Position numbers and translations under genes: made by a program. A stretch of DNA of 64,000 bases, from positions 124,001 to 188,000 of the forward strand of contig NZ_CADFDK010000010.1 of NCBI RefSeq assembly GCF_902832885.1, written 5' to 3'. This document shows positions 54,173 through 59,574 of the stretch, in pieces. Position 1 is the first letter of the stretch. Each line of letters opens with the position of its first letter. The DNA comes from Burkholderia seminalis DSM 23518. Lineage in GTDB: Bacteria > Pseudomonadota > Gammaproteobacteria > Burkholderiales > Burkholderiaceae. The notes beneath the pieces were generated by a model, which ran no database searches, was not told where the DNA came from, and was given only the letters and a program-made list of their open reading frames with translations.

Positions 54173-54709
54173 CTAGAAGCCGAGCCAGCGTGCGACGACG
54201 GGGCCGAGCACGAAGCCCCACGTCGTCACGCACGCGAACAGCGCGACCGTCACGGCCGCGCTGCCGAGATCCTTCGCACGCTTGGAGAGTTCGTGACGCT
54301 CGAGCGAGATGCGGTCGATCGCGGCCTCGACGCTCGAGTTCAGCAGCTCGACGATCAGCACGAGCAGCACCGAGCCGATCAGCAGCGCGCGCGACGCGGC
54401 CGGCACCGGCGCGAATGCGCCGATCGGGAGCATCAGCGCGGCGAGCGTGAGTTCCTGGCGAAACGCGCTCTCCTCGCGGATCGCGACGCGAAAGCCGTTC
54501 AGCGAATGCTTGAGGGCATACCACGCGCGCGTGATGCCGCGGTGGCGCTTGTACGGGTTCGGCGGCAGCGGCGACAATGGGTCGTCGGGGCCGAGCGGCT
54601 CGTGCGCGTGCACGTCCGCTTCGGCATGCGGCTCGTCCTCGTCGAACGGACGGTGCCGTTGCGGCGTGGAGGCGGGAGGCGGGATCTTGTCGTTCAGGTC
54701 TCGTTTCAA
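54173..54709 (-). CDS. dgkA: Diacylglycerol kinase with an acidic N-terminal extension
   Basis: 178 residues from a TTG that overlaps the upstream GT4 stop by four bases (TTGA); no ATG exists before the conserved domain. Residues ~1-60 are rich in Asp, Glu, His and Pro (PFDEDEPHAEADVHAHEP) and unlike E. coli DgkA (122 residues). The rest is a three-helix DgkA: the catalytic motif ELLNSSVEAAIDR near 125-137 and the AKDLGSAAVTVAL region. It makes phosphatidic acid from diacylglycerol in the inner membrane. In this operon the substrate could be diacylglycerol released by the phosphoesterase. Confidence 0.85.
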   Translation of the reverse strand: MKRDLNDKIPPPASTPQRHRPFDEDEPHAEADVHAHEPLGPDDPLSPLPPNPYKRHRGITRAWYALKHSLNGFRVAIREESAFRQELTLAALMLPIGAFAPVPAASRALLIGSVLLVLIVELLNSSVEAAIDRISLERHELSKRAKDLGSAAVTVALFACVTTWGFVLGPVVARWLGF

Positions 54710-55740
54710 ACGGCGGCACCTTCGGCTGGCGAGTACGCGGTCTTCGGCAGCGGCTTCAGATGCGACGCGAACTGCTCGGATGCCGCGCGCCACGAGAAGC
54801 GTTCGGCCCACGCGCGCGCGGTCGTGCGTTCGATCTTCAGCGCTTCGAGGCAGGCTTCCTGCAGGTCCTCGTGCATCGCGCCCGCGTCGCCTTCGCCGAG
54901 CACGTCGATCGGGCCCGTGACGGGATACGCGGCCACCGGCGTGCCGCAGGCGAGCGCCTCGAGGAGCACGAGGCCGAACGTGTCGGTGCGACTCGGGAAC
55001 ACGAACACGTCGGCCGCAGCATACACCTTTGCAAGCTCGGCCTGTGACAGCACGCCGAGATAGTTCGCCTCCGGATAGCGCGACTTCAGTTCCGCGAGCG
55101 CGGGGCCTTCGCCCGCGACCCACTTCGAGCCGGGCAGGTCGAGGCGCAGGAACGCCTCGACGTTCTTTTCGATCGCGACGCGGCCCACGTACAGGAAGAT
55201 CGGCCGCGCGGTGTTGAGCACCTTCGACTCCATCGGGCGGAAGATCTCGAGGTCGACGCCGCGGGTCCACAGCACGACGTTCGTGAAGCCGAATTTCTCG
55301 AGGTCCTGCTTGACGACCGGCGTCGGCGCCATCACCGCGAGCGACGGGCCGTGGAACCAGTGCAGGAAGCGGTAGGTCGCGGCCAGCGGGATGCCGAAAC
55401 GCGCCTGCACGTATTCCGGAAAGCGCGTGTGGTACGCGGTCGTGTACGGCAGCTTGCGCGCGCGCGCATAACGCCGTGCGGCGAGGCCGAGCGGGCCTTC
55501 GGTCGCGATGTGCAGCGCGTCGGGCGCGAACGCATCGATCCGCGCGCGCAGCTTGCGGTACGGCAGGATCGACAGGCGGATCTCGGGGTAGGTCGGGCAG
55601 GGCACCGTGCGGAATTCCAGCGGCGTCAGCAGTTCGACGCGGTGGCCGAGCGCGGTGAGCTCGCGCGACGTGCTCTTCAGCGTGCGCACGACACCGTTGA
55701 CCTGCGGTTCCCACGCGTCGGTGACGATCATGATCTTCAT
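54706..55740 (-). CDS. GT4 glycosyltransferase, candidate diacylglycerol glycosyltransferase (Agt-like)
   Basis: 344 residues from MKIMIVTDAWEPQVNGVV. GT-B fold, family 4: the N-terminal APPxxGG-like loop is EPQVNGVVRT, HIATEGPLG is in the acceptor domain, and the C-terminal donor domain has FPSRTDTFGLVLLEALACGTPVAA, broken over two lines of the motif, with the EX7E pair. Such proteins include glycolipid transferases (MgtA, SqdX, Agt). It follows the phosphoesterase gene by 29 bases and overlaps dgkA. The lipid-remodelling function is inferred from this context. Confidence 0.85.
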   Translation of the reverse strand: MKIMIVTDAWEPQVNGVVRTLKSTSRELTALGHRVELLTPLEFRTVPCPTYPEIRLSILPYRKLRARIDAFAPDALHIATEGPLGLAARRYARARKLPYTTAYHTRFPEYVQARFGIPLAATYRFLHWFHGPSLAVMAPTPVVKQDLEKFGFTNVVLWTRGVDLEIFRPMESKVLNTARPIFLYVGRVAIEKNVEAFLRLDLPGSKWVAGEGPALAELKSRYPEANYLGVLSQAELAKVYAAADVFVFPSRTDTFGLVLLEALACGTPVAAYPVTGPIDVLGEGDAGAMHEDLQEACLEALKIERTTARAWAERFSWRAASEQFASHLKPLPKTAYSPAEGAAV

Positions 55741-55769
55741 CGCGGCTTTGTCCTGTAAGTAGGGTTGTG

Positions 55770-56708
55770 TCAGGCAGTGGCCTTGGCCTTGCGCGACGTG
55801 GTCTCCGACGGTGCGGAGCGCATCACCGTCCAGTAGACGATCTTCAGTTCGCCTTCCATCGTTTCGACGAGCGCGGACAGGCTTTCGACCCAGTCGCCGT
55901 CGTTGCAGTACAGCACGCCGTCGATGTCGCGGATCTCCGCCTTGTGGATGTGGCCGCATACCACGCCGTCGCAGCCGCGGCGGCGCGCCTCGTCGGTCAT
56001 CACGGTCTCGAACTGCGAAATGAAGTTGACCGCGTTCTTGACCTGGTGCTTCAGGTACTGCGACAGCGACCAGTACTGGAAGCCGAGCCGGCTGCGGATC
56101 CGGTTGAACCAGCGGTTCAGCACGAGGATCAGCGTGTACAGCGTGTCGCCGAGATACGCGAGCCATTTCGCGTGCTGGATCACGCCGTCGAACAGGTCGC
56201 CGTGCACGATCCACAAACGTTTGCCCGCAATCGTCGTGTGGAAGGCCTCGCCGCGCACCTGGATGTCGCCGAACGCGAGGTCGCAGAACTGCCGCGCGCC
56301 CTCGTCGTGATTGCCGGGGATGTAGACGACCTGCGTGCCCTTGCGCGCCTTGCGCAGGATCTTCTGCACGACGTCGTTGTGCGCCTGCGGCCAGTACCAG
56401 CCTTTCTTCAACTGCCAGCCGTCGATGATGTCGCCGACGAGATACAGGTATTCCGAATCGTTGTGGCGCAGGAAGTCGAGCAGGTACGGCGCCTGGCAGC
56501 CGCTCGAGCCGAGGTGGATGTCGGACAGCCAGATGGTGCGGTAGCGATGGGCGGACGGGTCGGGATCGTCGTGCCGCGCGGGATGCGTGGCAGGCGGTTC
56601 TTGCGACGCCAGGTCATCGGTTGCAGCCGAACCGGACAGGAAGGCGGTGGCGGCGCGGGCGCCGATAGGGTGACGGAACAGGGAGGTCGCGGACGTTTTC
56701 TGGCCCAT
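55770..56708 (-). CDS. Metallophosphoesterase, PlcP/LpxH-like
   Basis: 312 residues from MGQKTSATS; the ATG at 56756 lies inside the Pho-box-like repeat and the likely transcript starts after it. After a ~55-residue polar N-terminus the calcineurin-type metal motifs follow: DIHLG with Asp63 and His65, GDIIDGW, GNHDE, HGD and GHIH near 245. The segment YWPQAHNDVVQKILRKARKG matches the PlcP group of phospholipases, annotated as UDP-2,3-diacylglucosamine diphosphatases. PlcP hydrolyses phospholipids to diacylglycerol under phosphate limitation; a plain LpxH role is the alternative. Confidence 0.85.
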   Translation of the reverse strand: MGQKTSATSLFRHPIGARAATAFLSGSAATDDLASQEPPATHPARHDDPDPSAHRYRTIWLSDIHLGSSGCQAPYLLDFLRHNDSEYLYLVGDIIDGWQLKKGWYWPQAHNDVVQKILRKARKGTQVVYIPGNHDEGARQFCDLAFGDIQVRGEAFHTTIAGKRLWIVHGDLFDGVIQHAKWLAYLGDTLYTLILVLNRWFNRIRSRLGFQYWSLSQYLKHQVKNAVNFISQFETVMTDEARRRGCDGVVCGHIHKAEIRDIDGVLYCNDGDWVESLSALVETMEGELKIVYWTVMRSAPSETTSRKAKATA

Positions 56709-56729
56709 GCATGACTCGCGCCGGTTGAC

Positions 56730-56735
56730 ATTATC
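56730..56735 (-). promoter_or_regulatory. -10 element of the phosphoesterase operon
   Basis: On the minus strand this reads GATAAT, 21 bases before the ATG at 56708. It lies 19 bases after the Pho-box-like repeat. Confidence 0.45.
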
Positions 56736-56754
56736 GGCATTCCGCCATGCGGGC

Positions 56755-56772
56755 ATGACTGTGCCGTGACAG
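56755..56772 (-). promoter_or_regulatory. Pho-box-like direct repeat
   Basis: Minus strand: CTGTCAC, four bases GGCA, CAGTCAT. Both 7-mers match the Pho-box unit CTGTCAT at six of seven positions, and the 11-base repeat period is that of PhoB sites. The box normally ends about 10 bases before the -10; here the best -10 is 19 bases away. The first unit is also half of a palindrome GTGACTGTCAC, so another regulator is possible. Confidence 0.5.
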
Positions 56773-56932
56773 TCACGAGACGTTCTTATTACGACCGCTG
56801 CCGGGTGTTTAGCAGTGAATCACGGCCCTTGCGTGACCTGCCGCACGGAACGGCCGGCGGTTGTCCGGCAGCGCCGTCTGGCCGGATGACGGAAGGCGGG
56901 ACGAGCGGTTTTCGTCTGAGGAGTGCGGCGCG

Positions 56933-57439
56933 TCAGCGCGGTATCGCGACGACGCGGGTGCGCGCGATCCGGTCGTGCGGAAATTGGCGGCCGGCATGCA
57001 GCCGGGCCGCGCCGGCCCAGATGACGATCCACGCGGCCGTGAGCGCGAGCGTGACGGGCACCGACAGGCCGAGGAGCGGATGCAGCGCGAGCGGAGGCAG
57101 GAACCACAGCCAGCCGAGCGCATAGCGGACGAGCGCGTGGCCGGCGCTCAGCGGCCGGCCGTTCGACGATTCGAGGCGCAGCCGCCAGGTCTTCATCGGC
57201 AGCGTCTGGCCGCCGTGGGTCCAGAACCAGACGAAGTACGCGCCGACGACGAGCGCGATCCACGCGGCGAGGAGGTTGTGATGGACGAGGCCGTTGCGTT
57301 GCTGCGTCGCGAGGCCGAATGCGAGCCCGGCGAAGAACACGACACCGAACAGCAGCACGCCTTCGTAGAGCAGCGCGGCGAGGCGCCGCCGCACGGAGGG
57401 CGCGGCGGCCGGGATCTCGGGGGCGCGGGCGTCTGCCAC
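56933..57439 (-). CDS. RDD-family membrane protein
   Basis: 168 residues. The RDD pattern starts with RRRLAALLYEGVLLFGVVF (the Arg and acidic residue in TM1), and the loop GGQTLPMKTWRLRLESSNGRPLS carries the second signature (TLGKxxxxLRV-like). Three to four membrane helices are seen. The function is unknown, and members often lie with stress or transport genes. It is 6 bases after the DUF3106 stop, last of the sigma factor operon. Confidence 0.85.
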   Translation of the reverse strand: MADARAPEIPAAAPSVRRRLAALLYEGVLLFGVVFFAGLAFGLATQQRNGLVHHNLLAAWIALVVGAYFVWFWTHGGQTLPMKTWRLRLESSNGRPLSAGHALVRYALGWLWFLPPLALHPLLGLSVPVTLALTAAWIVIWAGAARLHAGRQFPHDRIARTRVVAIPR

Positions 57440-57445
57440 GGCCGC

Positions 57446-58207
57446 TCAGGAGCCCTTGAACAGCGACGGTGCGTCGGCGGGCGACACCGGCGCCACGGCG
57501 GCCGGCGCGGACGCGGTGCCGGCCGTCGACGACGCGGGCACCGGCTGCGCGGCGGCGCCGCCCGAGGCAGGCGCCGGTGCGGCTGCGGCGCCGCTTGCCG
57601 GATGTTCGTGCGAATTGACGAGGCGGCGGACGTCACGGTCGGCGACGGTCGGCGGTGCGCTGACGACGCTCGGCCTGCGGCGGCGCTCGGCGGCCGCGAG
57701 ACGTTCCTTCTGCTCCTCGGGGAGTTGCTGGTAGGCCTTCCACGCGCGCTCGCGCGCCTGCGCGGACAGCTCTTTCGCGCTCTGGTAGTTTTCGCGCGCG
57801 ACGCGGCGCTGCTCGGGCGTCATCTTGGCCCATTCGGCCATCCGGTCCTGCAGGCGCTTCTGGTCATCGGGCGACAACTTCGCGAAACGCGACGCGATCT
57901 TCAGCCATTTTCGCTTGCGGGCGTCGCTGAAGCCATCCCACTGATCGGCGAACGGCGCGAGTGCCGCGTGCTGCGCCGGCGTGAGGCGCGCCCACGACAG
58001 CGGGCCGGTGGCGGCCGGCAGCGGCAGGGGCAGCGGCGGGAGTTCGGTGGCCAGCCCGGTCGCGGCCGAGGCAGGCGCGGCGGGGCTGACGGCCGCGACG
58101 GTGGTCGTCGCGGGGGCCGGGTGAAATCGGGAATAGGTGGCGACGTAGGAAACGGCGATCGCGATCACGCATCCGAAAAATACGGCCAGGCCGCGCTTCT
58201 GACTCAC
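57446..58207 (-). CDS. DUF3106 membrane-anchored protein
   Basis: 253 residues from a GTG with GAGGGG about nine bases upstream. A single N-terminal membrane helix (LAVFFGCVIAIAVSYVATY) is followed by a Pro/Ala-rich spacer. A DUF3106 region (~70-165) holds repeats of the type LTPAQxxALAPF, LSPDDQKRLQ and MTPEQRRVAREN, which form a charged helical array. The C-terminal ~80 residues are again Pro/Ala/Ser-rich. It would face the periplasm. It lies 26 bases after the DUF3619 gene in the sigma factor operon. Confidence 0.82.
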   Translation of the reverse strand: MSQKRGLAVFFGCVIAIAVSYVATYSRFHPAPATTTVAAVSPAAPASAATGLATELPPLPLPLPAATGPLSWARLTPAQHAALAPFADQWDGFSDARKRKWLKIASRFAKLSPDDQKRLQDRMAEWAKMTPEQRRVARENYQSAKELSAQARERAWKAYQQLPEEQKERLAAAERRRRPSVVSAPPTVADRDVRRLVNSHEHPASGAAAAPAPASGGAAAQPVPASSTAGTASAPAAVAPVSPADAPSLFKGS

Positions 58208-58233
58208 CCGTGCGATCCCCTCGTTATTGTCTG

Positions 58234-58659
58234 TTAGTGAGCGCGCGAAAGATACGCGTTGAACCCGTGATCGAGATACGCGTTGAGCGGCAGGTCGTCG
58301 CTGAGCATCGCTGCGTCGATGTCGGCGAGTTCGGCGGTGCGCTGCATGTCTTCCCAGTAGGCGATGCCGACGAGCCCCGCGAGCAGCAGCGCAAGCGGCC
58401 ACGCGCGCAGCAGGCGGCGCGCGAACGACGCTTTCGGGCGGTTCACGGGCGCCGGTCCGTAGGCACCGGCCGCGCCGGCGAAGGCCGGCACGAACACCGG
58501 CGCGGTCGCGGCTTCGGGTTTCTTGCGCGCGAGCGCGGCCCGGCGGGCGATGGCCAGACGATCGGTGGTCGCGGCAGGCAGCGCGGCCGCACGCTCGTCA
58601 AGCGCGCGGCGCACCTTCAGCGCGAATTCGTGTTCTCGGTTTGCGGGAGCGGAGCTCAT
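58234..58659 (-). CDS. DUF3619 single-span protein, possible anti-sigma factor
   Basis: 141 residues with AAAGGA eight bases before the ATG. The N-terminal ~85 residues are soluble and helical (HEFALKVRRALDERAAALP), then one membrane helix at ~88-106 (RAWPLALLLAGLVGIAYWE). A short acidic C-terminus ends in NAYLSRAH. The layout, cytoplasmic domain plus one helix, is that of many anti-sigma factors, and the ATG overlaps the sigma factor stop by four bases. The anti-sigma role is my inference from this arrangement; the family itself is uncharacterised. Confidence 0.82.
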   Translation of the reverse strand: MSSAPANREHEFALKVRRALDERAAALPAATTDRLAIARRAALARKKPEAATAPVFVPAFAGAAGAYGPAPVNRPKASFARRLLRAWPLALLLAGLVGIAYWEDMQRTAELADIDAAMLSDDLPLNAYLDHGFNAYLSRAH

Positions 58660-59219
58660 AGCGTGATTCCTTTGGCCTTGAGCGCTTGCGCCAGGGTATG
58701 GGTGGCCCGCGAGCAGTGCGTCTTCACGCTGCCCTCGGAGCACCCCATTGCGGCGGCAGTCTCGGCGACATCCATATCTTCCCAATAACGCATCAGGAAC
58801 GCTTCCCGTTGACGCGCCGGAAGCTTCTGGATTTCTTCGTCGATCAGGGCCAGAACCTGCTCTCTTTCGAGGCGGTGCTCGCTGCTCTCGACGCCCGCGT
58901 TGTCGTCCGCGGATTCGAGTGTTTCGAGCGGGTCGAAGTCTTCGTCGTCGGTATTGTTCAGCGACGAGAAGAGCGTGACCCACGTGTTGCGGACCTTCTG
59001 CCGGCGAAACCAGTCGTGGACCGTATTCTGCAGGATCCGCTGAAAAAGCAGCGGCAATTCGGCCGCCGGCCGGTCGCCGTACTTTTCCGCAAGCTTGATC
59101 ATCGCGTCCTGCACGATGTCGAGCGACGCATCGTCGTCACGCACGGCGTACGCAGCCTGCTTGAACGCGCGCCTTTCGACGCCCGCCAGAAAGTCGGCGA
59201 GTTCCTTGTCTGATGCCAT
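58656..59219 (-). CDS. ECF-type RNA polymerase sigma factor
   Basis: 187 residues from MASDKELADF; upstream in-frame starts add a non-conserved Arg-rich stretch. Region 2 is SLDIVQDAMIKLAEKYGD through FQRILQNTVHDWFRRQKVRN (~35-80). Region 4 has LPARQREAFLMRYWEDMDVAETAAAMGCSEGSVKTHCSRATH, split into the helix-turn-helix (~130-170). A ~35-residue acidic linker (NNTDDEDFDPLETLESADDN, in part) is unusually long. It heads an operon with DUF3619, DUF3106 and RDD genes. Its regulon is not known. Confidence 0.92.
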   Translation of the reverse strand: MASDKELADFLAGVERRAFKQAAYAVRDDDASLDIVQDAMIKLAEKYGDRPAAELPLLFQRILQNTVHDWFRRQKVRNTWVTLFSSLNNTDDEDFDPLETLESADDNAGVESSEHRLEREQVLALIDEEIQKLPARQREAFLMRYWEDMDVAETAAAMGCSEGSVKTHCSRATHTLAQALKAKGITL

Positions 59220-59574
59220 TCCGTGAAGGTATGCGCTGCGGGCCGCTGCGTGGTGTAAAAGGTCGAAAAATTTCGTAAAACCCGCGGATGCTATCAAATT
59301 TTCGTGCCGCTTGGCACCGGGTCGGGCGCCGCACGTTGCGCGCGAGCCGCGGCGGCGGGGCGCCGGGCGGCGCGCATGATGCGGTGCGGGATATTTTGCT
59401 TGACGACCCAACCACGACCCGCTATCGTCAACGATTCGCAACATGAAGTGATGGTCTCATTTGAGGCTGGCCCAAGAAGCCCGCCCTTCAAACTGGACGC
59501 GCCGCTTGAACCCGAGCCACAAGCCCGGCAGAGAGCACCCGATCAATTTTTTGCCGAAAATTCGAAAGGTCAAA
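59220..59574 (+). other. Sigma factor-ilvI divergent region (355 bp)
   Basis: It holds the ilv promoter and a ~140-base leader. No leader peptide rich in Ile/Val/Leu codons was found. One stem is plausible: TTTGAGG (59460-59466) with CCTTCAAA (59485-59492). No gene is called. Confidence 0.55.
59400..59428 (+). promoter_or_regulatory. Promoter of the ilv operon
   Basis: TTGACG (59400-59405), a 17-base spacer and TATCGT (59423-59428) form a well-spaced sigma-70 promoter, giving a leader of about 140 bases before ilvI. Confidence 0.7.

Follow-up and report, generated by a model that had tools for sequence, protein, structure and literature searches.

We analyzed a stretch of 64,000 nucleotides from Burkholderia seminalis DSM 23518 (contig NZ_CADFDK010000010.1, positions 124,001 to 188,000), here called the window, which carries three adjacent open reading frames (ORFs) on its minus strand: a metallophosphoesterase gene called at 55770–56756, a gene for a glycosyltransferase of family 4 (GT4) at 54706–55740, and a gene for a prokaryotic diacylglycerol (DAG) kinase at 54173–54709. 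The GT4 frame begins 29 bases past the stop of the metallophosphoesterase frame, and the kinase frame, which opens with TTG, has four bases in common with the GT4 stop. This is the layout given in a preliminary description of the DNA, with which the ORF calls and the Pfam matches (Metallophos, E = 1.6e-9; Glyco_transf_4, E = 2.6e-24; DAGK_prokar, E = 9.1e-32) agree. Based on sequence comparison, we propose that the three genes probably constitute a PhoB-activated membrane-lipid remodeling operon, plcP-agt-dgkA. The pathway formed by PlcP and Agt under phosphate control is a known one, to which the kinase is an addition here.

Identity of the three gene products

The first gene encodes PlcP, an intracellular phospholipase C of the metallophosphoesterase family, and not LpxH. 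By pairwise BLAST the protein is 52% identical to the PlcP of Sinorhizobium meliloti and 53% identical to the equivalent of PA3219 of Pseudomonas aeruginosa, references whose naming rests on gene neighbors in plasmid-collection records, and alignment with the PlcP proteins of these two species shows the metal-site motifs DxH, GD, GNHD, HGD, and GHIH to be common to all three. In a maximum-likelihood tree of 180 rows (158 PlcP, 22 LpxH), the two families split at support 100 and both reference proteins fall on the PlcP side. The tree is a quick one, in which 57 of the 177 inner branches are weak and the finer relations are rough; the branch between PlcP and LpxH is long, and the tree program warns of long branches meeting there. 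The window protein exceeds the Metallophos cut-offs of Pfam, whereas it scores 34.6 bits against one of the two LpxH models of NCBIfam (cut-off 134) and 31.7–32.6 bits against the other, TIGR01854 (cut-off 190.35). A search of the strain's own genome (55 contigs, 7,974,784 bases) found a separate lpxH at G000:C1:140598–141251, which scores 232.4 bits against TIGR01854, above the cut-off, and to whose product the best local match of the window protein has an E value of 0.16. The preliminary description had seen an LpxH-like enzyme, had read it as PlcP, and had made that reading depend on phylogeny and on the presence of another lpxH elsewhere in the genome; both come out on the side of PlcP. 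Given the score below the TIGR01854 cut-off, the separate lpxH, and the split in the tree, we rejected an identity as LpxH. An LpxH above its curated cut-off is likewise present in 22 of 23 chosen PlcP-bearing genomes, our own included; the exception, G015, has two PlcP genes (L203, L204) and no LpxH match at E 0.001.

We predict that the window PlcP acts as a phospholipase C on membrane phospholipids, yielding DAG. No chain in the PDB matches it at E 0.01. Among the matches listed, from which records very near our own may be missing, its nearest named relatives are those of Burkholderia sp. D-99 (97%) and B. arboris (96%), which points to a source of the Burkholderia cepacia-complex type. The public annotation of five relatives (L166–L170) as UDP-2,3-diacylglucosamine diphosphatase is probably a wrong transfer from LpxH, a label given to PlcP relatives in public records that the present assignment would correct.

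As to the reference proteins themselves, PA3219-PA3218 is reported to be the plcP-agt1 pair of P. aeruginosa (PMC8528852). The P. aeruginosa plasmid pPALO11 (CP075839.1, L167) holds a plcP-agt pair followed by cyaB, and in the S. meliloti record plcP adjoins genes for a LuxR regulator and an acyl-homoserine-lactone synthase. We take cyaB to be PA3217, so that the pPALO11 order fits PA3219-PA3218-PA3217, and we presume that the S. meliloti neighbors are sinR/sinI and that the PlcP there is SMc00171. The pPALO11 stretch appears to duplicate plcP-agt1-cyaB of the chromosome. The S. meliloti record, 3.7 Mb long (L166, CP090106.1), is titled plasmid pSymB and looks like a misnamed chromosome.

The second gene, agt (54706–55740, minus strand), is assigned by sequence as a DAG glycosyltransferase of the Agt1 type: its product belongs to GT4, is kin to a characterized Agt, and is encoded next to plcP. 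It shares 53% identity with the equivalent of PA3218 (336 residues aligned), and its identity to that protein and to the product of a gene beside plcP in a Sphingomonas plasmid is 52–53%. It is the only match in its own genome at E 1e-40, and six distinct sequences of other GT-B-type glycosyltransferases with structures in the PDB match it at E 1e-8. PA3218 is reported to produce monoglucosyl-DAG in Escherichia coli (PMC8528852), and for this reason our best guess at the product of the window Agt is the same lipid.

The third gene, dgkA (54173–54709, minus strand), encodes a protein that scores 109.4 bits against PF01219 (curated cut-off 22.3), and by profile search it is the only DAGK_prokar gene in the genome. 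The Pfam domain is preceded by 66 residues rich in proline and histidine (54512–54709). The distance from the agt stop to the first similarity to DgkA differs widely among species, and the extension is apparently of varying length. The overlap of the agt stop and the dgkA start is the four-base sequence TTGA (54706–54709). A start codon is possible at this place in 32 of the 68 loci that have all three genes, whereas the other 36 have none there. Translational coupling of agt and dgkA at the overlap is likely, which suggests that DgkA is produced in step with Agt.

A conserved Pho box and the start of plcP

Upstream of plcP on the minus strand lies a Pho box, CTGTCACGGCACAGTCAT (56755–56772), found by pattern scans and upstream alignment. 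It reads CTGTCAC-GGCA-CAGTCAT, that is, two putative PhoB half-sites at an 11-base period. The strict pattern, which was written from this site, matches the site itself and nothing else in the genome, and the reversed control gives no match; with one mismatch allowed, there are seven sites compared with two for the reversed control. One of these one-mismatch copies lies 88 bases upstream of a gene for a periplasmic binding protein (PF12849) that we read by eye as PstS. Another (L333) is in what by eye is a ribosomal-protein region, and two (L331, L332) have no recognized gene.

The site was then scored in 80 plcP upstream regions, namely the window and 79 of 80 named loci, which are the best 80 of 586 confirmed stretches; L109 has no anchor, and L053 and L100 are short. 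The score reaches 14 of 14 in 16 regions, at least 13 in 42, and at least 12 in 69, compared with 0.0, 0.2, and 1.6 in shuffles; the letters accepted are those seen in the window site and so were chosen post hoc, the shuffles were scored in the same way, and the relatives are not independent of one another. Several loci of Cupriavidus and Ralstonia have more half-sites at 11-base steps past the box. The Pho box is conserved beyond chance, and the Pho-box-like site that the preliminary description had picked out by its period is therefore borne out.

The box also bears on the start of plcP because it overlaps ATG 56756, the first codon of the ORF as called. In the 11 closest Burkholderia loci (L035–L045) the box ends in CAC, so that this ATG is absent, and most Paraburkholderia proteins match only from residues 16–17 onward. 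ATG 56708 (Met17), by contrast, is kept across the upstream alignment of Burkholderia and Paraburkholderia. Based on the missing upstream ATG and the point at which the matches begin, translation of plcP very probably starts at ATG 56708, and we place the gene at 55770–56708 accordingly; the 16 codons ahead of it in the long ORF are very probably promoter DNA.

Two further elements flank the box. Directly upstream is a conserved block, GTAATAAGAACGTCTCGTGA (56773–56792, minus strand), which includes a degenerate third half-site, ACGTCTC, 11 bases upstream. In an alignment of 24 chosen upstream regions, GTAATAAGAAC(G/T)TCTCGTGACTGTCAC shows few changes in the rows of Burkholderia and Paraburkholderia. 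The exact form with two free positions is found in 21 of the 80 named loci, and the window has one occurrence at up to three mismatches where none is expected. The block is highly conserved among Burkholderia and close relatives, and the third half-site is weak. On the other side, CGGAAT (56739–56744, minus strand), 10 bases past the Pho box, was picked by eye as a putative -10 element, and a hexamer ending in AAT stands at this distance in most rows of the 24-region alignment. PhoB promoters of E. coli have the same 10-base spacing from the Pho box to the -10 element.

Gene order among relatives

Sixty-eight of the 80 named loci keep the order plcP-agt-dgkA; four of the other 12 (L095, L096, L101, L114) end inside agt and are uninformative. 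The genera with this order include Burkholderia, Paraburkholderia, Caballeronia, Trinickia, Pandoraea, Cupriavidus, Ralstonia, Polynucleobacter, and Jezberella. Other orders occur in genomes of other classes, namely dgkA-plcP-agt (L174, L175) and plcP-glycosyltransferase-dgkA (L176), and the order in L171 is plcP-glycosyltransferase-dgkA-glycosyltransferase.

A broader view comes from 150 Burkholderiales genomes, 70 of which have a PlcP at E 1e-20. After a PlcP fragment (G023:C5) and split pieces of Agt (G003, G051, G058) were dropped, there were 72 places for PlcP and 64 for Agt; a glycosyltransferase match on the opposite strand at a distance of 5.6 kb (G069) was not taken as a partner. At the 48 PlcP places with at least 57% identity, agt lies directly downstream in 33, and dgkA lies downstream on the same strand in nine and divergently upstream in one. 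At the 24 less similar places, dgkA is within 6 kb in three. A same-strand dgkA no more than 3 kb from plcP is present in 12 of the 59 Burkholderiales genomes that have both genes (expected, 0.075) and in 5 of 46 further Pseudomonadota genomes that have both, two of them in the window's own family (expected, 0.043). The counts within either set are not independent, but mapping this linkage on the PlcP tree requires at least nine changes, as gains or losses, which speaks for a coupling of dgkA to plcP (G268, not searched for DgkA, was omitted, and the divergent neighbor in G108 was counted as not linked).

In eight genomes (G024, G033, G035, G046, G062, G078, G080, G122), dgkA and another GT4 gene share a strand and lie at most 3 kb apart, with no plcP nearby. 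The product of this GT4 gene is 36–40% identical to Agt, and the pair is possibly a second cassette of dgkA and a glycosyltransferase.

Proposed function of the operon and the place of DgkA

We hypothesize the following course of events. At low phosphate, phosphorylated PhoB would bind 56755–56772 and plcP-agt-dgkA would be transcribed. PlcP would cleave phospholipids to DAG and a phosphorylated head group, and Agt would add a sugar, most likely glucose from UDP-glucose, to DAG, giving a phosphorus-free glycolipid. DgkA would phosphorylate the DAG that escapes Agt to phosphatidic acid, and DAG would thereby be kept below harmful levels. Remodeling is the reading put forward in the preliminary description, and it is upheld in so far as the phosphoesterase groups with PlcP, lpxH is a separate gene, Agt is of the PA3218 type, and the Pho box is conserved. 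Gene identity, phylogeny, and kept gene order are likewise observations; PhoB binding, cotranscription, the enzyme activities, and the lipid product are predictions, and the DgkA step is the least certain part of the mechanism. If the proposal is true, Pho-controlled renovation from phospholipid to glycolipid extends to a large group of soil and opportunist bacteria.

The first two genes have close counterparts elsewhere. In P. aeruginosa, PA3219-PA3218 is likewise plcP followed by agt with a Pho box upstream (PMC8528852). Both enzymes of the apparent pPALO11 copy of this segment are 53% identical to those of the window, but cyaB comes next, no dgkA stands beside the pair, and the 8.7 kb stretch has no DgkA match. 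The S. meliloti PlcP, with the same motifs as the window protein, has no match to Agt or DgkA within 4 kb. In marine bacteria, plcP with agt is described as arrangement type 2 and Pho boxes are predicted in plcP clusters (PMC4796936); the main text of that paper contains neither "dgkA" nor "diacylglycerol kinase." The same holds for the main text of a study of Methylosinus trichosporium OB3b, in which the operon has two genes and deletion of plcP-agt is reported to abolish GADG, the glycolipid formed under phosphate limitation (PMC9239053). The closest precedent for the kinase is in Pseudomonas putida BIRD-1, where PlcP and DagK are reported as enriched on phosphate depletion in a PHO-dependent manner and as key lipid-remodeling proteins; this is a proteome listing, in which we saw neither a PlcP-DagK operon nor a mechanism (PMC5082522). 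The preliminary description knew of no account with a dgkA partner; its claim to novelty is weakened, as DagK had already been named with PlcP. Of the operon itself we found no description in the literature searched (a phosphorus-stress proteome of Burkholderia cenocepacia, outside that literature, may report these proteins).

An operon that makes and uses DAG would profit from a kinase because the latter removes any surplus, and it is plausible that DgkA drains surplus DAG here. E. coli DgkA, of the same Pfam family, salvages DAG as phosphatidic acid; its loss is reported to raise DAG about 20-fold and to be lethal under osmotic challenge (PMC8027125). There, however, the substrate comes from the synthesis of membrane-derived oligosaccharides (MDO), a pathway that supplies about two thirds of the DAG accumulating without DgkA, and from lipid A modification, unlike in the operon described here (PMC8027125). 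We searched our genome for OpgG, a marker of the MDO pathway, and did not find it, and we rejected this pathway as the source of DAG; other DAG-releasing enzymes were not searched for. We suggest that dgkA serves as a built-in relief valve for DAG, having been recruited on several independent occasions into operons of plcP and a glycosyltransferase, and that in the Burkholderiaceae the sole DgkA has come under phosphate control, with a single promoter governing both lipid renovation and DAG toxicity; to this proposal we assign even chances. It would give a testable account of a step missing from the pathway, namely the fate of DAG when its release by PlcP outpaces its use by the glycosyltransferase.

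A number of findings weigh against this proposal or against the operon as a whole. No terminator-like site was found by motif scan on the minus strand past dgkA, and no sigma-70 consensus promoter was found by scan. Given the weak inner branches noted above, the count of nine linkage changes on the PlcP tree is rough. Among the genomes that carry both genes, 47 of the 59 and 41 of the 46 show no same-strand dgkA at that distance of up to 3 kb from plcP, and in the wider sample 34 of 80 genomes with PlcP lack any DAGK_prokar (PF01219) match. PlcP and DgkA together can form an ATP-wasting cycle, and a dgkA that is the sole copy may have its own promoter as well. The regions upstream of unlinked dgkA genes reach a Pho score of at least 12 of 14 in 1 of 31, 0 of 9, and 1 of 20 cases, compared with 0.4, 0.3, and 0.2 in shuffles. 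The 31 regions represent 30 of 47 Burkholderiales genomes in which PlcP is present and dgkA is unlinked (genomes of the less similar PlcP group, G104, G108, and one of two G070 copies are omitted), the nine are from a Pseudomonas-like group named by its place in the tree, and the 20 are from genomes without PlcP. As there is no box beyond chance, we rejected an independent Pho control of unlinked dgkA, and Pho control of dgkA, if real, is limited to the linked lineages. Because dgkA is mostly unlinked, often absent, and where unlinked has no Pho box, its induction is not a general need of PlcP and Agt. The PHO-dependent DagK of P. putida sits awkwardly with these boxless genes; its control may be indirect, or the site may have been missed by our scoring.

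Alternatively, dgkA could be a housekeeping passenger, with plcP-agt alone as the Pho-regulated unit. The gene would then be transcribed from its own promoter, its product would recycle DAG released when lipid A or other parts of the envelope are modified, and its position in the operon would have little tie to phosphate. The lack of linkage in most genomes and the boxless unlinked genes speak for this, as does the fact that a lone DAGK_prokar gene may meet other needs; in E. coli, the DAG that DgkA salvages arises in MDO synthesis and, most likely, also through the action of EptA (PMC8027125). We nevertheless consider it unlikely, given the four-base overlap with agt here and its possible counterpart in 32 of the 68 loci, the gene order kept from Burkholderia to Polynucleobacter, the pairing of dgkA and plcP seen in further lineages, and the result for OpgG within the scope given above. 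Members of the DgkA family in Gram-positive bacteria act on undecaprenol, and both activities occur within the one Pfam family; that the DgkA of the operon acts on undecaprenol and not on DAG is, however, very improbable in a Gram-negative host with gene neighbors that make and use DAG. We give next to no credence to a lipid A synthesis operon headed by lpxH. The names of relatives in public records and the weak likeness to LpxH models speak for such a reading, but the tree, the scores, and the true lpxH elsewhere contradict it.

The genes upstream of the proposed plcP-agt-dgkA operon on the minus strand (56933–59444) encode a protein of the RDD family, proteins with DUF3106 and DUF3619, and a sigma-70-like factor, none of which has an obvious link to lipids. 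In Mitsuaria sp. 7 (L168), plcP adjoins the polyphosphate kinase gene ppk1 and a gene for a Ppx/GppA phosphatase.

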